Part shown: positions 4,323 to 56,221 of the stretch, one piece after another
How the letters are laid out: the number at the start of each line of letters is the position of its first letter
Position numbering within the stretch: position 1 is the stretch's first letter
Origin: Geodermatophilus poikilotrophus
GTDB lineage: Bacteria > Actinomycetota > Actinomycetes > Mycobacteriales > Geodermatophilaceae
Length of the DNA stretch: 64,000 bases
Direction: 5' to 3'
Assembly: GCF_900111455.1 (NCBI RefSeq)
Contig: NZ_FOIE01000002.1
Span: forward strand, 527,663-591,662
Program-made: the position numbers and the translations under genes
The notes under the pieces: model-generated
Seen by the model: only the letters and a program-made list of their open reading frames with translations
What the model was told of the DNA's origin: nothing
The model's database searches: none

Positions 4323-6953
4323 TCAGTCCAGGGCCTCGACGGCCGCCAGCACCTCGTCGTCGGTCGGGTTGCGCAGCACTCCGCCGCGCCGCCACACCAC
4401 GACGGGCAGGTCGTCCTCGGTGACCCCCAGCTCGGTGAGCACCGCGGCGCCGTCACCGCCGGCGTCCAGGTCGACGAAGCCGGCCGACAGCCGGCGGCTG
4501 CGCGCCAGCTCCTGCAGGCGCCGGCTGTCCGGCGAGCCGCCCCGGCCGACGATGCGCAGGTCGGCCGCGAGCTCGAGCAGCATCGAGCGGCGCAGCAGGA
4601 AGGCCCGCAGCACCAGCTCCTTGAGCGCCGGGTCGGCGGTGAAGACGGCCCGCAGCTGCTCGCGCTCGACACGCAGCACCTCGGCCGGCTGCAGCACCAG
4701 CGCGGTCAGCGACACCGGCTGGCCGCTGAACAGGTCGAGCTCCCCGAGGAAGCGGTGCCGCCCGTGCACCGAGATGACCCGCTGGCCGGTCCGGCCGTGG
4801 TCCTCCACGACCGCGACGGTCCCGGAGACGACGACGTGGAAGGCGTACCCGGCGTCGCCCTCGCGGAAGAGGGTGTCCCCCGGCGCGCAGCGCAGCCGGG
4901 TGGCGGAGCGCTCGACCAGGGCGACCTGCTCGTCGGTCAGCCGCGGGAAGGCGCCGTCCCGGTCGGGGGTCTCGGGCAGGTCGGCCGGCACGTCCGCGGG
5001 GACGTCGTCCGCCTCCGGGCGGGGCTCACCGCGCCGTTGTCCGAGCGCCGGCAGCACCAGCCCGGTCAGGCCGTCGTCGCCGGACGGCGGCAGCCCGTCC
5101 TCCGCTCCGTCGGCGAGCAGCGCCGCGGCGAGGCTGTCGGCGTCGAACGGGCCGGTGTGCCGCCGGCCGTTGACGAAGAAGGTCGGGGTCCCGGTGACGC
5201 CGCTGACCTCGGCCGACTCGACGTCCTCCTCGACCCGGCGGGCGAACCGGCTCGACCCCAGGTCCCGGGCGAAGCGGGACACGTCGAGCCCGGCTGCCGC
5301 GGCGTGCTCCAGCAGGTCGGTCGGCATCAGCCGGTCCTGACCGGCGAACAGCCGGTCGTGCATCTCCCAGAACCGGCCCTGCGCGTCGGCCGCCTCGGCG
5401 GCCTCGGCGGCCAGCCGCGCGTGCGGGTGGACGTCGACCAGCGGCACGTGCCGGAAGACGTAGCGCAGCCGGTCCCCGAACCGCTCGCGCAGCTCCTCGA
5501 CCGTCCCAGTGGCCCGGCCGCAGAACGGGCACTCGAAGTCGCCGTACTCGACGAGGGTCAGCGGCGCGTCGGCCGGCCCCCGGACGTGGTCGCGGTCGAC
5601 GTCGACCGGCGGGTCGAGCAGCACCGGGCGCCCCCCGGCGCCGGGTGGACGACGACGGTCGGCCAGCCGGAACAGCGCCCAGCCCAGCAGCGCCGCTAGC
5701 ACCGACGCGACCAGGACGCCGACCCGCGCCTGGTCGGCCCGTGCCTCGTCGTCGAAGGCCAGGTCGACGATGAACAGCGAGATGGTGAACCCGATCCCCG
5801 ACAGCGCCGCGCCGCCGCCGAGCTGCAGCCAGGTCAGTCCCGGGGCCAGCTCGCCGAGGCGCAGCCGGACCGCGAGGCCGGTGCCGAGCAGGATGCCGAG
5901 GAGCTTGCCGAGCACCAGGCCGGCGACGACCCCGAGGGTGACCGGCGAGGTGGCCGCAGCGCGCAGCGTCTCGCCGGTGAGCGGGACGCCGGCGTTGGCG
6001 AGGGCGAACACCGGGACGATCACGAAGCTGGTCCACGGCTGCCAGAGCTGCTGCAGCCGCTCGCTGGCCGACACCGACCGGTCGATCGACAGCCGCGCGG
6101 CACGGGCGAACTCTGGGTTGGGCGACTGCTGGTAGGCCCGGGTCAGCCGGGCGGCGTCCGCCACCTCGTCCCGGCGGGCCGGATAGGCCGGGGTGAACAG
6201 CGCGATCACCACCCCGGCGAGGGTGGGGTGGACGCCGGAGAGGTACATCGCCACCCACACCGCGAGGCCCAGGACCAGGTAGGCCGGTCCGCGCCACACG
6301 TTGAGGTAGCGCAGGCCGATCATGAACGCCAGCCCCAGCACCGCCAGCACCAGCGGGCCCACGGCGAGGTCCTCGGTGTAGAAGAGCGCGATCACGGTCA
6401 GCGCCCCGACGTCGTCGGCGATGGCCAGGGTGAGCAGGAACAGCCGCAGCTGCGCCGGGCAGGCCGGCCCGACGAGCGCGAGCACGCCGAGCAGGAACGC
6501 GGTGTCGGTGGAGATCACCACGCCCCACGCCGAGGCCGCCTCGTCGCCGAGGGTGAACGCGACGTAGACCAGCGCCGGCACCGCCAGGCCGGTGACGGCG
6601 GCCAGCGCGGGCACCGCGGCCCGCCGCCGGTCGGTGAGCTCGCCCATCACCAGCTCGCGCTTAATCTCCAGCCCGACGACGAAGAAGAAGAACACCATCA
6701 GGCCGTCGTTGACCCAGTGCTGCAGGTCCAGGGCGAGCTCGGCGCCGGCGAAGCGGACGGCGAACTCGGTGTGCCAGAAGGTCTCGTAGCTGCCGCCCCA
6801 CGGCGAGTTGACCCACAGCAGCGCGATGACGGTGGCGGCGAGCAGCAGCCCGGCACCCCCGGCCTCGGTGCGCAGCCGCTGCCGCAGCGGGGCCACCCGG
6901 GCGAGCAGACCCCACCCGCCCGGCGTGGACTGCCGGCTGACGCTGGTGCTCAT
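4323..6953 (-). CDS. NhaA Na+/H+ antiporter fused to thioredoxin-like, cNMP-binding and redox-like domains
   Basis: An 876-residue fusion. Residues about 15-415 are an NhaA-type Na+/H+ antiporter with about 12 membrane helices and the ion-binding pair D180-D181 in the A-D-D context. Residues about 430-620 are a DsbA-like thioredoxin fold with C475-P-F-C478 and a TGTPTFFVNG cis-Pro loop. Residues about 650-780 form a cyclic-nucleotide/CRP-type beta-roll (FREGDAGYAFHVVVSG, LGELDLFSG). The last 90 residues resemble the glutaredoxin-like module found next to cNMP domains in some thioredoxin-reductase-like proteins. NhaA-thioredoxin fusions are known in actinobacteria; the added cNMP and C-terminal modules are unusual. 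It probably links ion exchange to redox state or a ligand (inference). ATG 6953 overlaps the MFS stop by four bases (ATGA), so translation is coupled. Confidence 0.85.
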   Translation of the reverse strand: MSTSVSRQSTPGGWGLLARVAPLRQRLRTEAGGAGLLLAATVIALLWVNSPWGGSYETFWHTEFAVRFAGAELALDLQHWVNDGLMVFFFFVVGLEIKRELVMGELTDRRRAAVPALAAVTGLAVPALVYVAFTLGDEAASAWGVVISTDTAFLLGVLALVGPACPAQLRLFLLTLAIADDVGALTVIALFYTEDLAVGPLVLAVLGLAFMIGLRYLNVWRGPAYLVLGLAVWVAMYLSGVHPTLAGVVIALFTPAYPARRDEVADAARLTRAYQQSPNPEFARAARLSIDRSVSASERLQQLWQPWTSFVIVPVFALANAGVPLTGETLRAAATSPVTLGVVAGLVLGKLLGILLGTGLAVRLRLGELAPGLTWLQLGGGAALSGIGFTISLFIVDLAFDDEARADQARVGVLVASVLAALLGWALFRLADRRRPPGAGGRPVLLDPPVDVDRDHVRGPADAPLTLVEYGDFECPFCGRATGTVEELRERFGDRLRYVFRHVPLVDVHPHARLAAEAAEAADAQGRFWEMHDRLFAGQDRLMPTDLLEHAAAAGLDVSRFARDLGSSRFARRVEEDVESAEVSGVTGTPTFFVNGRRHTGPFDADSLAAALLADGAEDGLPPSGDDGLTGLVLPALGQRRGEPRPEADDVPADVPADLPETPDRDGAFPRLTDEQVALVERSATRLRCAPGDTLFREGDAGYAFHVVVSGTVAVVEDHGRTGQRVISVHGRHRFLGELDLFSGQPVSLTALVLQPAEVLRVEREQLRAVFTADPALKELVLRAFLLRRSMLLELAADLRIVGRGGSPDSRRLQELARSRRLSAGFVDLDAGGDGAAVLTELGVTEDDLPVVVWRRGGVLRNPTDDEVLAAVEALD

Positions 6954-51557: not shown

Positions 51558-51643
51558 AGCGCTCCTCAGGGGTCGGGACGGCTCGATGAGCCTCCCAGAC
51601 GGGACGGGCGCCGCGGGAGGGCCGACCGGGGTCCTGGCTGGAC

Positions 51644-51684
51644 AGGTGCGGAGCCCGGTCCGCGGGGGACCGGGCTCCGCACCT
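51644..51684 (-). terminator. Perfect 18-bp hairpin after the alcohol dehydrogenase
   Basis: AGGTGCGGAGCCCGGTCC (51644-51661) pairs perfectly with 51667-51684 around a five-base loop. It lies 35 bases past the dehydrogenase stop and separates its operon from pyc. Confidence 0.85.
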
Positions 51685-51718
51685 GGTCCTGCGCGCCGTG
51701 GGCGGCAGGGGTCCTTCG

Positions 51719-52744
51719 TCAGGGGACGAGGATCGCCCGGCCCCGGACCTTGCCGGCGTCGAGGTCGCGGAGCGCGTCCACGGCCCGGTCCAGCGGGTAC
51801 TGCTGGGTGTGCAGGGTGACCTTCCCGGCCTGCGCGAGCACCATCAGCTCGGCCAGGTCGGTGTAGGTGCCGACGATGTTGCCGACGATGTTCTTCTCAC
51901 CGGCGACGAAGTCCAGCGTCGGGATCCGGAGCTCGCCGCCGTACCCGATGACGTAGTACGAGCCGGCCGGGCCGGTCATGTGCCAGCCGTCCATCTCCGC
52001 GCCCTGCTCGGCGACGAAGTCGAAGACGACGTCCGCGCCCCCGCCGGTCAGGTCCTGGACCGCCTGCACCTGGTCGCCGTCGGCGACCACGGTCTCGTCC
52101 GCGCCGATCTGCCGGGCGAGCTCCAGCGCGTCGGGGTTGCGGTCGACGACGACGATCCGGGTGCCCGACAGCGCGGCCAGGCACTGGATGCCGATGTGGC
52201 CGAGACCGCCGGCGCCCTGCACGACCGCCGTCGTGCCCGGGTGCAGCAGCGGCAGGGCCTTGCGCACGGCGTGGTAGGCGGTGATGCCGGCGTCGGCGAG
52301 TGCGGCGACGTCGGCGGGGTTGGTCGACGGGTCGAGCTTCACGCAGGCACGGGCGGTGGTGCGCAGGTACTCGGCCATGCCGCCGTCGTCGTTCGACAGC
52401 CCGGGGAAGAAGGCGTTGTCGCACTGCATGTCCCGGCCGGCGCGACAGGCCGTGCACAGCCCGCAGCTGGGCTGCGGGTGCAGGATCACGGTGTCGCCGA
52501 CGGCGACGTTGGTGACCCCCTCCCCGACCTCGTGCACCCACCCGGCGTTCTCGTGCCCGATCACGTAGGGCAGGTCCGGGTTCTGCAGCTCGGCCCACTG
52601 GCCCTCGAGGATGTGCAGGTCGGTGCGGCAGACCCCGGCGCCGCCGATCCTGACCACGACGTCGAGCGGACCCTGGACCTGCGGTTCGGGGACGTCGTCG
52701 ATCGAGGGGTCGGCGTGGTACTCGTGCACGCGTACGGCCTTCAC
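51719..52744 (-). CDS. NAD-dependent alcohol dehydrogenase of the propane-oxidation type
   Basis: A 341-residue zinc alcohol dehydrogenase. Catalytic zinc residues are in GAGVCRTDLHILEGQW and YVIGHENAGWV; structural zinc cysteines in CGLCTACRAGRDMQC; the cofactor site in VVQGAGGLGHIGIQ. The sequence style (HILEGQW, LADAGITAYHA, DLDAGKVRGRAILVP) is that of the dehydrogenase in mim/prm propane-monooxygenase clusters, where it oxidises the alcohol made by the oxygenase. GTG 52744 overlaps the DUF59 gene by four bases. Its usual upstream oxygenase genes are absent here. Confidence 0.88.
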   Translation of the reverse strand: MKAVRVHEYHADPSIDDVPEPQVQGPLDVVVRIGGAGVCRTDLHILEGQWAELQNPDLPYVIGHENAGWVHEVGEGVTNVAVGDTVILHPQPSCGLCTACRAGRDMQCDNAFFPGLSNDDGGMAEYLRTTARACVKLDPSTNPADVAALADAGITAYHAVRKALPLLHPGTTAVVQGAGGLGHIGIQCLAALSGTRIVVVDRNPDALELARQIGADETVVADGDQVQAVQDLTGGGADVVFDFVAEQGAEMDGWHMTGPAGSYYVIGYGGELRIPTLDFVAGEKNIVGNIVGTYTDLAELMVLAQAGKVTLHTQQYPLDRAVDALRDLDAGKVRGRAILVP

Positions 52745-53508
52745 GGGTGGGTTCCCTTCGAGACGGTGAGCGGGAGCAGGGGGCGGTCCTCGGGTCGCGG
52801 GGCCTGGTCGGCCTCCGACCCGGGGTAGCGGGTGGTGAGCAGACCCCGGCAGAAGTGCGCGTTGCCGTCGACGGAGATGCGCACCGAGCGAGCCCGGCGC
52901 AGCACCAGCTCCGCCTGCGCAGGGGCGGGTCGGGTGCCGTCGTCGTGCACGAGCACCGGTGCGGCGTCGTGCACGGGCAGGCCGAGGGTCGCCCGCCGGC
53001 GCAGCAGCGCGTCGGTGGTGCGCTCCCCCGCCGGCAGGTCGCCGAGGGTGAGCGCCGCGACGTCCACCGCCGGGTCGGTGCGGAGCAGCGCCGTGACCGC
53101 CCGCTCCATCGCCGCGGTGTGCGCCTTGCGCTGGAAGGTCGCCCGCAGCTCGTCGAGGGAGTCCTCGGCCTCGTGCCCGAAGGTCCCCCGGTAGCCCAGC
53201 CCGGCTGCCATGCCGCGGTTGATCAGGTCGGAGTCGTGGTGGTCGTCGAGCTCGACCACCACGGACTCCACCCCGGGGACGGCGGACACCGCGCCGTGCG
53301 CGTCGGAGACCATCAGCCAGGCGAAGTTGGGCGCGCAGAACGAGGTGGGCAGCCGCAGGTGCACCTCGACGGCACGACCCTCGACCGACACCGAGCGGAC
53401 GAAGCCGACGTCGGTGATCGGCTCGTCCAGCTCGGGGTCGACGACGGTGCCCAGCGCTGCACGGACCTCGGCCTCGGTCACGGCCAGGTCGGGGAGGACG
53501 GCGGTCAT
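52741..53508 (-). CDS. MIP18/DUF59 iron-sulfur assembly-like protein
   Basis: A 255-residue protein. The first ~110 residues are a DUF59/MIP18 domain: AVTEAEVRAALGTVVDPELDEPITDVGFVRSV, PTSFCAPNFAWLMV with a Cys in the position used by Fe-S carriers, and VVVELDDHH. The C-terminal half is an uncharacterised extension (LGYRGTFGHEAEDSLDELRATFQRK). This architecture is found next to the amidohydrolase and dehydrogenase in propane/phenol-type binuclear monooxygenase clusters, where a role in metal-centre assembly is presumed. ATG 53508 starts it; the stop overlaps the dehydrogenase start (GTGA). Confidence 0.8.
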   Translation of the reverse strand: MTAVLPDLAVTEAEVRAALGTVVDPELDEPITDVGFVRSVSVEGRAVEVHLRLPTSFCAPNFAWLMVSDAHGAVSAVPGVESVVVELDDHHDSDLINRGMAAGLGYRGTFGHEAEDSLDELRATFQRKAHTAAMERAVTALLRTDPAVDVAALTLGDLPAGERTTDALLRRRATLGLPVHDAAPVLVHDDGTRPAPAQAELVLRRARSVRISVDGNAHFCRGLLTTRYPGSEADQAPRPEDRPLLPLTVSKGTHP

Positions 53509-53520
53509 CGGCGTCCCTCC

Positions 53521-54564
53521 TCAGACCGAGGCGAGGTCGGCCGCCGCGGGCTCGCGCGGGCCGGTCGCGGTCTCGTCGGCGTCGGGCAGCTGCAGCTCGG
53601 CCGGCACCGGCAGGTCGTAGAGCCGGGCGGCGTTGAGGCCGAGCACCTTCTTCTTCAGCGCGGTGGTGAGCGGGGCGTACTCGGTCATGTCCTCGGGGAT
53701 CTGGAAGTCCACGAAGCGCTCGACCAACCACTTCGGCGTCCACAGCGCGTAGTCGCTGGAGAAGAGGATGCGGTCCTCGCCGAGCCAGTAGGTGAGCTCG
53801 CCCATGATCTGCGCGAAGTAGCGGGGCCGGGTGTGGATGAACGGCATGGCCACCGCCAGGCCGGCGTACACGTTGGGCTCCTGGGTGGCGATCCAGCAGA
53901 AGTCCTCCAGGCGCGGCAGCCCGCAGTGCTCGACCACGAAGTTCAGGTCGGTGAAGTCGGTGGCCGCGTGGTCGACGTCGGCGACGTCGAAGGCGTCCCG
54001 GTCCAGCGGGCGGATCGTCGGGCCCTTGTGGACGTGGACGTTCCTGATGCCCAGCTCACGGCAGAGCTCGAAGTAGCGGTAGGCCATCGGGTCGGTGAGC
54101 TTCCACCCGCGGGACTCGCCGTGCCAGTCGGCGGTGTAGAGCTTCACGCCCTTGAGCTGCATCCGCTCGGCGTTGGCGCGGAGCTGGTCCAGGCCGTTCT
54201 CGCCGTCGCGCGGGTCCCAGTAGTGGTTGTAGGTGAGCTTGTCCGGGTGGGCCTGGGCGAGCGCGAACGCCTCCTCGGTCTGCCCGAAGCCCCGGTGGTA
54301 GAACTCCGCGAGCCGGGCCGGCTGGAAGATCGCGTGGTCGACGATCCCGTCGACGAACACGTCGCGCATCAGCCGCTCGCCGCCCTGGTACAGATACTCC
54401 TCGTAGCCCCAGGTCTCGGACTCCGGGCTGAGGTTGCGGTGGTAGTCGTAGAAGCAGTCGATGAACTGCTTGCCGTGGACGTTGCGCTGGTTCTCCGGGC
54501 GCGCGTCCCACAGGGCGATGTGGGAGTCCACGACGTAGTAGCTCTCGCCGTCCTTGCGGTACAT
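53521..54564 (-). CDS. Amidohydrolase-family protein of the mim/prm accessory type
   Basis: A 347-residue TIM-barrel metal hydrolase of the amidohydrolase-2 group: VVDSHIALWDARPENQRNVHGKQFIDCFYDYHR, LKGVKLYTADWHG, VHVHKGPTI, VVEHCGLPR and FSSDYALWTPKW. The N-terminal metal motif H-x-H is H-I-A-L here, so the first pair is incomplete. It is the usual neighbour of propane monooxygenase genes, where it is needed for full activity or maturation, though its reaction is not known. ATG 54564 follows GGAGG. It is divergent from the activator gene and starts an operon of three. Confidence 0.83.
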   Translation of the reverse strand: MYRKDGESYYVVDSHIALWDARPENQRNVHGKQFIDCFYDYHRNLSPESETWGYEEYLYQGGERLMRDVFVDGIVDHAIFQPARLAEFYHRGFGQTEEAFALAQAHPDKLTYNHYWDPRDGENGLDQLRANAERMQLKGVKLYTADWHGESRGWKLTDPMAYRYFELCRELGIRNVHVHKGPTIRPLDRDAFDVADVDHAATDFTDLNFVVEHCGLPRLEDFCWIATQEPNVYAGLAVAMPFIHTRPRYFAQIMGELTYWLGEDRILFSSDYALWTPKWLVERFVDFQIPEDMTEYAPLTTALKKKVLGLNAARLYDLPVPAELQLPDADETATGPREPAAADLASV

Positions 54565-54650
54565 GCCGGCCTCCGTCAGCTCGGTGTGAGGGCAGTCACC
54601 CTGCTCGGCCGACGCTAGGCAGCCCGACGGGTGGTGAGTAGGCGGTCGTT

Positions 54651-54665
54651 GTCTCACTTTGGGAC
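54651..54665. promoter_or_regulatory. Candidate operator in the divergent activator-amidohydrolase region
   Basis: GTCTC-ACTTT-GGGAC is an imperfect inverted repeat (four of five base pairs), preceded by TTGTCTC. It lies midway between the two divergent start codons at 54564 and 54731, where an activator would act on either gene. Confidence 0.35.
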
Positions 54666-54730
54666 GCCGACCCGCCCCGATCGGCGCGTACATTGCGTGT
54701 GGCGCAGGCCACAGAGGTCGGGAGGTCGTC

Positions 54731-56221
54731 GTGGACGGGCGCTCACTCGACTCCCCGGCGCCGCCGGCCGCGCTGACCGACCGGCCGGCCGGGCTGGCCG
54801 CGGCGCCGCGCGTGCGGGCGTCCTGGCACCGCAGTCAGCACTACGGCGTCCCCCCGGACGAGGTCATCCCCGTCTTCACCGGCTCGCTGGACACCGGGTC
54901 CCTGCTGTACGAGTGCGCGCACCGGGTCCTCACCGACCTGCAGGCGACGATCCCGAACGAACCGGTCAGCCTCATGGTGGCCGACTCCACGGGCCTCGTC
55001 CTGGCCCGGCTCGGCGACGACCCCGACATCCGGCGGTCGCTCGACCGCGTGCACCTGGCGCCGGGGTTCTCCTACAACGAGCGCAACGCCGGGACCAACG
55101 GGCTCGGGCTGTCCCTCGCCGACCGGGCGCCCACCCTGGTGCGCGCAGCGGAGCACTACTGCGCCGATCTGCGGGGCTACACGTGCGCGGCCGCGCCCGT
55201 GCTCGAGCCGGTGACCGGCGAGCTGGCCGGGAGCATCAACCTGACCACGTGGTCGGACTCCTCGTCGGAGCTCCTCCTGGGGCTGGCCCAGACGGCGGCG
55301 AGCGCCACCAGCGCGCTCATGCTCCTCCGCGCGGGCGGCCGGACGCTGCGGCCGGTACCCCGGGGCGACGTCTTCCACGTCACCGGTGGCCGGCTCGCCC
55401 CCGAGGACGGCGACCCGTGCGTCTCCACGAGCTGGCGTGCCGCCGTGGAGGAGGCGGCGACGGCCGTCGCCGCCGGGCGGGTGGCGGCCGTCGTGGGCGA
55501 GCCGGGATCGGGCAAGGCCACGCTCGCCGCGCTGGCCCGCCGCCGGCTCCCATCCCGGCAGCGGATCCTCCGCGCCCGCGCACCCGAGGCCGGCGACGTC
55601 ACGGCCTGGCTCGAGCTGTGGACCCCCGGCCTGCGCGACGCGGACACCTGCGTCATCGTGTCCGGGCTGCAGGACCTGCCGGCCTGGGCCGCCGGCGAGC
55701 TGGCCCAGATCCTGACCACCGCTCGCCGCGCCGGCCGGCCGCAGCCGTTCGTCCTGACGGCACCCGGCTTCTCCGCCATCCCCGACCAGCTGACCGGGCT
55801 GGCCGACACGGTCGTGGAGGCCCCGCCCCTCCGGCTCCGGACCGACGACGTCCTGCCGCTCGCGCAGCGGTTCGCGCGCGAGGAGCGCCACCGTGCGGTC
55901 GACTTCACCCCCCGTGCGGCGCGCGCGCTGGGCAGCTGCGGCTGGCCGGGCAACGCCACGCAGCTGCGCCGCGTCGTCCGGGACGCCGCGACGCGCGCCG
56001 ACGTCGTGGACCTGCACCACCTCGCCCCCGAGGTCCTCGACGGCGGCACGCGCCCCCTCGGCCGGCTGGAGCAGCTGGAGCGCAACGAGATCGTGCGCTG
56101 CCTCACCGAGCCCGGCACCACGGTCACCCGCGCCGCCGAGGAGCTCGGCATCGGCCGCGCCACGCTCTACCGGAAGATCGCCCAGTACAAGATCACGGTG
56201 CCGCCGCGCTCGACGGACTGA
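54731..56221 (+). CDS. GAF-AAA-Fis activator, MimR/AcoR-like
   Basis: A 496-residue regulator. Residues about 50-210 form a GAF sensor (FSYNERNAGTNGLGLSLA, YTCAAAPVLEPVTGELAGSINLTTW). Residues about 240-420 are a reduced AAA domain: Walker A is GEPGSGKATLAAL, but the G-A-F-T-G-A loop that contacts sigma-54 is absent. The C-terminal HTH_8 region (LEQLERNEIVRCL, VTRAAEELGIGRATLYRKI) binds DNA. MimR, which activates the propane monooxygenase operon, has this architecture. GTG 54731 follows GGGAGGT. It is divergent from the accessory operon it probably controls. Confidence 0.84.
   Translation: MDGRSLDSPAPPAALTDRPAGLAAAPRVRASWHRSQHYGVPPDEVIPVFTGSLDTGSLLYECAHRVLTDLQATIPNEPVSLMVADSTGLVLARLGDDPDIRRSLDRVHLAPGFSYNERNAGTNGLGLSLADRAPTLVRAAEHYCADLRGYTCAAAPVLEPVTGELAGSINLTTWSDSSSELLLGLAQTAASATSALMLLRAGGRTLRPVPRGDVFHVTGGRLAPEDGDPCVSTSWRAAVEEAATAVAAGRVAAVVGEPGSGKATLAALARRRLPSRQRILRARAPEAGDVTAWLELWTPGLRDADTCVIVSGLQDLPAWAAGELAQILTTARRAGRPQPFVLTAPGFSAIPDQLTGLADTVVEAPPLRLRTDDVLPLAQRFAREERHRAVDFTPRAARALGSCGWPGNATQLRRVVRDAATRADVVDLHHLAPEVLDGGTRPLGRLEQLERNEIVRCLTEPGTTVTRAAEELGIGRATLYRKIAQYKITVPPRSTD

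Follow-up and report, generated by a model that had tools for sequence, protein, structure and literature searches.

The closest described systems to the locus examined here are the prmABCD and mimABCD propane monooxygenase clusters (group 5 SDIMO), known from Gordonia TY-5, Rhodococcus, and Mycobacterium, in which genes for an amidohydrolase-related protein (AMH), a DUF59/MIP18 protein (DUF59), and an alcohol dehydrogenase (ADH) follow one another in the same order, a layout that the consulted part of PMC6849523 also gives for propane monooxygenase clusters. Their activator belongs to the same general type, and they share a putative operator sequence, which there lies upstream of the hydroxylase gene. 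According to the same part of that paper, GroEL is essential for heterologous expression of the clusters' monooxygenase, and in Mycobacterium sp. AT1 an amidohydrolase, a gene of unknown function, and an ADH sit at a chromosomal site apart from the propane monooxygenase. Strain AT1 differs from our genome in possessing such a monooxygenase and in being able to grow on propane (PMC6849523, same part). Genomes with the trio alone are not discussed in the consulted part of PMC6849523, and a literature search covering few subscription journals found no publication that describes the standalone unit or this operator.

We analyzed a 64-kb stretch of the Geodermatophilus poikilotrophus genome (the window), in which the unit comprises the following features.

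51643..51685, minus strand: perfect hairpin, between the ADH gene and the pyruvate carboxylase start
51719..52744, minus strand: ADH, zinc-dependent MDR alcohol dehydrogenase, 341 aa (Pfam ADH_N and ADH_zinc_N)
52741..53508, minus strand: DUF59/MIP18 protein, 255 aa (PF01883)
53521..54564, minus strand: AMH, amidohydrolase-related, 347 aa (PF04909; ACMSD-like TIM barrel predicted)
54651..54665, minus strand: putative operator GTCCCA-AAG-TGAGAC, roughly 100 bp ahead of the AMH start
54731..56221, plus strand: GAF-AAA-HTH_8 activator, AcoR/MimR-like, 496 aa (Pfam HTH_8 and AAA lid)

A sequence-only reading of this DNA had described three overlapping minus-strand genes, divergent from a GAF-AAA-HTH_8 activator and homologous to the prm/mim accessory set. 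The trio, its strand, and a 4-base overlap between the ADH and DUF59 genes stand, but the DUF59 and AMH genes are separated by 12 bases; gene coordinates and Pfam domains bear out the divergent activator, whose best start is the GTG at 54731 rather than the TTG at 54659, and sequence comparison upholds the homology. The place between activator and AMH, said to be empty of oxygenase subunits, is indeed a 166-bp gap that holds no gene but does hold the conserved operator. Nor does a GroEL follow: unlike the prm/mim clusters, the window has no profile match anywhere to propane-type hydroxylase subunits, a reductase, a coupling protein, or GroEL. The operon ends, as proposed, in a perfect hairpin (19-bp arms at 51643-51661 and 51667-51685, z of -5.55 versus shuffles), which is likely a terminator, though one without a T-run. 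The typed flanks (44.6-59.1 kb) hold LUD-domain, PASTA kinase, pyruvate carboxylase, TetR, and MMPL genes. A genome-wide hydroxylase search, which the sequence-only reading had proposed, found no PF02332 protein in this 99.9%-complete genome, and neither a prm-type alpha subunit nor DUF1097 was found there. ABM relatives in the same genome reach 36-37% at most.

In the ADH, whose best PDB sequence match is 1h2b, residues C39, H64, E65, C97, C100, and C108 are invariant across the family rows, and we take them to be the catalytic and structural zinc ligands. The DUF59 protein matches PF01883 at 57.8 bits (curated cut-off 23.5), with C58 of its N-terminal MIP18 domain invariant in 61 family rows; unlike MIP18/CIAO2B and bacterial DUF59 proteins, it continues into a mostly helical C-terminal extension of about 160 residues with an invariant C220, for which Foldseek and VIA-align gave no identification, a result that does not itself imply novelty. 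The AMH matches PF04909 (Amidohydro_2) at 169.8 bits (cut-off 26.4), and its predicted model matches the TIM-barrel fold; a PDB sequence search returned one weak match, 3irs, and a profile search against PDB sequences returned none. Entries for TruffO and DitZ among the model's fold matches hint at the existence of iron- or manganese-bound members. An HxH metal motif on strand 1 is a feature of Amidohydro_2/ACMSD-like enzymes. Compared with ACMSD/COG2159 (de)carboxylases and hydrolases (3irs, LigW, LigJ, and LigY), to which it is 11-19% identical in the fold comparison, our AMH lacks one histidine of this motif, having H-x-A, while H177, H179, H213, and D271 are retained. The substituted position is Ala in 47/48 and Gly in 1/48 standalone family loci, versus His in all 10 readable monooxygenase-linked family loci (two more are gapped). 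The change is not strictly diagnostic, as H-x-A also occurs in Rhodococcus JS3073 (inside the prm clade) and Peribacillus; other loci that lack a monooxygenase and fall outside the standalone clade show H-x-H or H-x-G. With the second histidine missing, the standalone AMH might be something other than an ordinary hydrolase. The activator lacks GAFTGA, the motif of sigma-54 enhancer-binding proteins, as does every other activator aligned. It is the standalone trio's own, only 28-33% identical to the activators of propane-type operons, although the HTH_8 helix is nearly identical.

Across relatives, this arrangement recurs widely. Close relatives of the window's DUF59 occur in 54 of 112 family genomes, and 53 of these 54 have no PF02332 match; the same search finds PF02332 in 12 of the 112, and the two sets share one genome (Fisher p 0.004, ignoring relatedness). 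The four-gene arrangement is complete in 46 of 48 standalone family loci examined, amid differing flanks, an agreement beyond what chance would give, and the AMH averages 87% identity across the 48. The sequence-only reading had raised the loss of a gene block at 54.56 kb; the oxygenase-free arrangement is instead the common family form, and its conservation within the family leads us to reject a local monooxygenase deletion at that point. Of the best 80 among 215 confirmed stretches from named actinobacteria (several on short contigs), 76 have no monooxygenase gene in the DNA examined; a further search listed 120 of its 4004 matches. Among 15 inspected of 17 plasmid matches, monooxygenase genes adjoin the AMH-DUF59 pair in 10 and are absent in 5. 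Several further branches also carry pairs that lack a monooxygenase (haloarchaea, Thermomicrobium, Peribacillus, and families f19 and f22). Some neighbors of monooxygenase-less loci would point toward small oxygenated compounds, namely a glycerol/1,2-propanediol-type dehydrogenase, lactoylglutathione lyase, DJ-1/PfpI, and a formate-dehydrogenase-like molybdoenzyme with FdhD. An annotated quinol-monooxygenase gene often follows the standalone trio and also follows a Rhodococcus propane-type cluster.

The association between trio and hydroxylase looks one-sided. Of 20 genomes that encode a propane-type hydroxylase, 18 also carry the trio's AMH or DUF59; both exceptions are incomplete assemblies, and one of them contains an AMH fragment. 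Within the family, the DUF59 set accompanies PF02332 in 11 of 12 genomes, and in the twelfth an AMH fragment lies where a contig ends. Among 394 class genomes, 8 have a prm-type hydroxylase (at least 60% identity), 7 of them with AMH, and 30 have AMH (E 1e-60), 7 of them with the hydroxylase. It looks as if the hydroxylase depends on the trio and not the converse, most trio genomes having no such hydroxylase.

The sequence-only reading had named a placement of these proteins outside the mim/prm families as grounds for refuting it, and in the trees they fall only partly outside. The standalone AMH and DUF59 proteins group in a clade of their own, which lies well apart from the monooxygenase-linked class of the family (identities of 54% for AMH, 47% for DUF59, and 71% for ADH, the family-level AMH tree being a quick one) and less strongly, at SH-aLRT 91, from Rhodococcus-type accessories. 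The sister group of the standalone clade is the Rhodococcus-type propane clade (SH-aLRT 99 jointly, 91 for standalone, and 94 for prm), in a tree of 51 of 113 AMH rows (113 of 139 once near-duplicate Geodermatophilaceae were dropped) with weak deep branches (60-89) and a very long Rhizobium branch (N324). Yet Mycobacterium mim-type and Modestobacter lapidis accessories nest inside the standalone clade, and in M. lapidis and two Mycobacterium loci these lie beside or inside monooxygenase clusters.

The two kinds of operon are further joined by a putative operator, which is new here: a conserved site, with family consensus GTCTCA-N3-TGAGAC, upstream of both standalone AMH and actinobacterial propane-type hydroxylase genes. 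Of 85 standalone loci that have the activator, 81 carry it ahead of AMH, and none of the shuffles does, the motif having been derived from those same loci and one genome being counted twice (L140/L251); by distinct AMH sequences the count is 80 of 84, and the misses are L113, L114, L116, and L148. Among 20 actinobacterial propane-type loci, 19 have it upstream of the hydroxylase gene (against 0.02 expected; hydroxylase starts approximate, from our own gene calls), or 16 of 17 without three loci (L302, L303, and L320) fetched for their operator match, with M. lapidis (L083) the single miss; none of 8 proteobacterial loci has it there. It is upstream of AMH specifically in 0 of 30 monooxygenase-linked loci and in 3 of 18 monooxygenase-less loci with no activator nearby; in the family scan, sites lie upstream of the hydroxylase gene or ADH. 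In GroEL-ADH-AMH-DUF59 clusters with a readable GroEL-ADH gap, a second operator lies just before ADH in 5 of 5 (one of them L302, fetched as above), which suggests that even in these clusters the trio is transcribed as a unit of its own. The operator has one convincing target in our own genome: beyond it are two sites at two mismatches (control 1) and one GTCCCA-type site inside an open reading frame (control 0). Exact sites in 18 class genomes number 22, of which 13 are at trio promoters, 7 lie in or beside monooxygenase loci, and 2 are elsewhere; two genomes that carry the unit (G384 and G447) have no exact site, and a few exact sites occur in family genomes that lack the trio (G002, G005, G065, and G109, for example). 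Because the operator is common to both kinds of promoter, propane operons and standalone units appear to be under one putative switch.

To our mind, the chances are about even that the trio is an autonomous inducible unit for small alcohols or ketones, to which propane monooxygenases have been attached repeatedly and which they sometimes use in trans. This reading draws on monooxygenase-less conservation, one-sided dependence, the operator counts, the second operator, the neighbors, and protein abundance. Several observations tell against it: the standalone AMH is short of the second HxH histidine, the sister position of the clades would allow a single early loss, the metabolic neighbors vary by lineage, most typed in one example each, the quinol-monooxygenase gene is shared with a Rhodococcus propane-type cluster, and no operator was found at L089, a trio of the monooxygenase-linked class with no monooxygenase in the stretch examined. 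The locus would be a complete operon and not a remnant, judging by its divergent activator, operator, compact trio, hairpin, conservation without monooxygenases, and shared operator. MimR is reportedly acetone-responsive. In our proposal, the activator would sense a small, acetone-like ketone or alcohol, bind GTCTCA-N3-TGAGAC, and turn on AMH-DUF59-ADH; the ADH would interconvert a small secondary alcohol or acetol-like compound, and the AMH, a metal enzyme that DUF59 would mature or assist, would act on the oxo-compound so formed. A monooxygenase attached upstream in some lineages, or using the unit in trans, would feed propane or acetone in. According to PMC7176365, the Mim cluster of A. chiangmaiensis is strongly induced on acetone as well, and in cells grown on 2-HIBA the cluster's AMH and Adh1 make up 3.2% and 6.1% of the proteome, amounts that are high for a catalytic maturase; the chaperonin MimG reaches 4.0% in the same table, and abundance therefore does not decide the question.

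Doubtful, though well worth weighing, is the possibility that AMH and DUF59 mature or repair metal sites, serving the di-iron hydroxylase in propane clusters and an unlinked iron enzyme or the ADH in standalone genomes. The sequence-only reading had offered recruitment to another metal enzyme as a possibility. The MIP18-like character of DUF59, with its conserved Cys, accords with such a role, as do the 18 of 20 hydroxylase genomes and the need for GroEL in heterologous expression (PMC6849523, consulted part). Yet the pair persists as a regulated operon in a genome with one convincing operator target and no detected PF02332, it is tied to an ADH, and a MimG-like chaperonin is rarely beside the monooxygenase-less trio (a GroEL match in 2 of 110 loci, one at a contig end in the monooxygenase-linked class, the other beside an unrelated strand).

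A single ancient monooxygenase loss is allowed by the sister position of the standalone and prm-linked clades. By this account, which we consider improbable, the standalone clade came from a propane-type operon and was retained for its ADH step, while AMH and DUF59 rode along as passengers; the shared operator fits it, as does a cluster (G479) in which the alpha subunit is reduced to residues 507-564 and the trio is still present. Passengers should decay, however, and the AMH has not, nor does one early loss sit easily with monooxygenase-less pairs on several other branches. The sequence-only reading had offered service to an unlinked oxygenase, an idea that suits other genomes: one (G336) has a propane-type operon without a trio and a distant standalone unit with the same operator, in M. 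lapidis a monooxygenase cluster adjoins a standalone-clade trio and no other trio was found, and strain AT1 is a published unlinked case (PMC6849523, consulted part). As a general account of the standalone trio, it is very improbable given the 53 of 54 genomes above, and it is unlikely in our own, where neither hydroxylase search gave a match and one operator target is convincing.

Returning to the autonomous unit, a more specific and still tentative proposal, which we hold rather unlikely as a whole, is that the AMH-DUF59 pair itself is the key enzyme of an unrecognized pathway acting on small ketones or hydroxyketones (acetone, acetol, or relatives): a metal-dependent, possibly iron-dependent, amidohydrolase-fold enzyme with a dedicated MIP18-type partner, present in many actinobacteria, some haloarchaea, Thermomicrobium, Bacillota, and rhizobia, with propane monooxygenases as optional upstream suppliers and the histidine loss in the standalone clade marking a changed metal site.

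Propane monooxygenase clusters of organisms ranging from actinobacteria to proteobacteria contain AMH and DUF59. Because many genomes have both, with the same operator and no detectable hydroxylase, the pair can be studied away from the monooxygenase, and the choice between maturation factor and catabolic enzyme becomes directly testable. The operator provides a genome-searchable mark for an actinobacterial propane/ketone regulon, and caution is due in reading the trio's presence as evidence of propane oxidation. Since the trio stands alone under its own switch here, as in many relatives, these "helper" genes probably have a metabolic job of their own.

Three minus-strand genes of Geodermatophilus poikilotrophus (genome 4.83 Mb, completeness 99.87%), encoding an amidohydrolase-related protein (AMH, PF04909), a DUF59/MIP18 protein (PF01883) and a zinc alcohol dehydrogenase (ADH), diverge from a GAF-AAA-HTH_8 activator gene. 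This gene set and its divergent layout agree with the sequence-only reading, as does the perfect hairpin (19 bp, without a T-run) 3' of ADH. A pyruvate carboxylase gene and a TetR-MMPL pair flank the locus.

51719-52744, minus: Zn-ADH gene
52741-53508, minus: DUF59/MIP18 gene
53521-54564, minus: AMH gene (Amidohydro_2 protein)
54651-54665: copy of the putative operator, GTCCCAAAGTGAGAC
54731-56221, plus: GAF-AAA-HTH_8 activator gene, divergent from the trio

That reading held that the monooxygenase is absent beside its accessory genes, and the 64-kb window, to which the reductase and coupling protein searches were directed, indeed gave no profile match to hydroxylase subunits, reductase, coupling protein or GroEL. 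The genome-wide search that it called for found neither the hydroxylase profile PF02332 nor, even at E 10, a prm-type (propane monooxygenase) alpha subunit. The identical PF02332 search was positive in 12 of 112 Geodermatophilaceae genomes.

The further suggestion of a gene block lost at this locus is not borne out. Among the 112 genomes, DUF59 falls into two classes: a close relative in 54 (71-100% identity) and a second class in 11 (46-54%), 10 of which have PF02332. The classes separate in the DUF59 tree (100/100) and in a quick AMH tree (100), with mean between-class identities of 47% for DUF59, 54% for AMH and 71% for ADH. Among 60 family loci and the window, the AMH-DUF59-ADH order was the same in all 48 loci of the close-relative class and the divergent activator was present in 46, while the genes around loci without monooxygenase ("standalone") differed between groups. 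The locus is a standing unit rather than the scar of a local oxygenase loss; its oxygenase-free arrangement is conserved within the family.

Dependence between the two gene sets looks one-sided: nearly all genomes with the hydroxylase carry trio members, and most trio genomes have no such hydroxylase. Eleven of the 12 family genomes with PF02332 have a DUF59 set, and the twelfth (G098, 80% complete) shows part of an AMH gene where a contig ends; conversely, PF02332 is missing from 54 of the 65 genomes with a DUF59 set. Across 394 genomes of the class, AMH (E 1e-60) occurs in 30 and the prm-type alpha subunit (at least 60% identity) in 8, 7 of which have AMH; the eighth, G481, is 63% complete. 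Individual genomes vary. In G336, a propane-type cluster lacking the trio and a distant standalone unit carry the same putative operator. In G199 (L239, L240), a complete propane-type cluster that includes a trio coexists with a truncated standalone AMH, which lies at a second site beside its activator, without DUF59 or ADH. G479 has both sets, with the alpha subunit reduced to residues 507-564; at its locus L228, the cluster with this remnant and its own trio faces a complete standalone unit.

A wider survey, of named genomes, yielded 215 confirmed stretches; the best 80 came from Geodermatophilaceae, Cryobacterium, Microbacterium, Herbiconiux, Nocardioides, Prauserella, Amycolatopsis, Humibacillus, Pseudonocardia, Streptomyces, Mycobacterium and others, with monooxygenase genes in 4 of the 80 (L131, L165, L175, L181) within the stretches covered. 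Of 17 plasmid AMH matches, 15 were examined: 10 lie within propane-type clusters of proteobacteria and Rhodococcus, and 5 (two haloarchaea, Thermomicrobium roseum, Peribacillus, Rhizobium N324) have no monooxygenase in the stretch covered. In three loci from 1.3-Mb genomes of another family of the class (f28; L243, L254, L256), AMH is retained at 41-42% identity, and a short ORF (~112 aa) that matches DUF59 weakly comes next; the L243 region also contains sugar-type ABC transporter genes.

In a 51-row AMH tree (SH-aLRT supports), the actinobacterial standalone clade (91) is sister to the Rhodococcus-type propane-cluster clade (94; joint 99). Nested inside the former are two Mycobacterium mim-type loci (99) and Modestobacter lapidis (95). 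Monooxygenase linkage requires 6 changes on this tree, at least 4 of them forced by well-supported branches, so that the monooxygenase probably became re-attached to the trio more than once.

The two locus types share a putative operator, GTCTCA-N3-TGAGAC, found with at most one mismatch upstream of 81 of 85 standalone loci with an activator (median 102 bp before AMH) and in none of the shuffled upstream sequences. Of 20 actinobacterial propane-type loci, 19 have the same site ahead of the hydroxylase gene versus 0.02 expected (16 of 17 when the 3 chosen through an operator match are excluded); none of 8 proteobacterial ones does. A second site precedes ADH in all 5 clusters ordered GroEL-ADH-AMH-DUF59 whose GroEL-ADH gap is covered. 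The standalone and propane-type activators are 28-33% identical overall and have most of the HTH_8 helix in common (typically SRATIYRK or GRATLYRK). In G. poikilotrophus, a genome scan found the trio promoter to be the only convincing site; 18 class genomes contain 22 exact sites, of which 13 belong to trio promoters and 7 fall within or next to monooxygenase loci. In L293 (G053:C15) and L294 (G052:C23), the operator's neighbors are a gene for a luciferase-like monooxygenase (PF00296) and another regulator gene of the HTH_8 type, possibly a paralogous regulon. L320 (G336:C66, 8637-9205) has a second operator before a 166-aa ORF adjoining the propane-type cluster without AMH, DUF59 and ADH.

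In 13 monooxygenase-free loci, the gene immediately after ADH is a small one of the ABM family (PF03992; two members typed), and a similarly annotated gene follows a Rhodococcus propane-type cluster; next genes elsewhere encode a glycerol/1,2-propanediol-type dehydrogenase (6 loci, one typed) or a DUF1097 membrane protein (4 loci, one typed). Family f22 has the order ADH-AMH-DUF59-IclR-FdhF/YdeP with FdhD divergent (typed in one genome). Lactoylglutathione lyase and DJ-1/PfpI genes adjoin the locus in Rhizobium N324 and Peribacillus, respectively. In G062, a locus syntenic with the window and located by operator scan (L292, G062:C8, ~5351-6004) has the same operator, followed by a DUF1097 membrane-protein gene, in place of the trio and activator, and the genome's trio sits on a different contig.

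The trio could be a set of maturation factors serving some other iron enzyme, which we regard as rather unlikely. Alternatively, it could be an autonomous small-alcohol/ketone unit, which we give about an even chance. PMC7176365 agrees with the latter, reporting AMH and Adh1 as highly abundant in A. chiangmaiensis grown on 2-HIBA and its Mim cluster as also induced on acetone, although MimG, the GroEL-like chaperonin, was similarly abundant. In Mycobacterium sp. AT1, the trio is unlinked from the monooxygenase, according to PMC6849523, and PMC9213486 labels genes for amidohydrolase and iron-sulfur assembly within propane-type operons in one of its figure legends. Any statement on the inducer, on what AMH catalyzes or on what DUF59 contributes is an inference. 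Because the trio persists without a hydroxylase, has what looks like its own switch, in common with propane operons, keeps a fixed link to ADH and has metabolic neighbors, we favor an autonomous alcohol/ketone unit over a maturation set.
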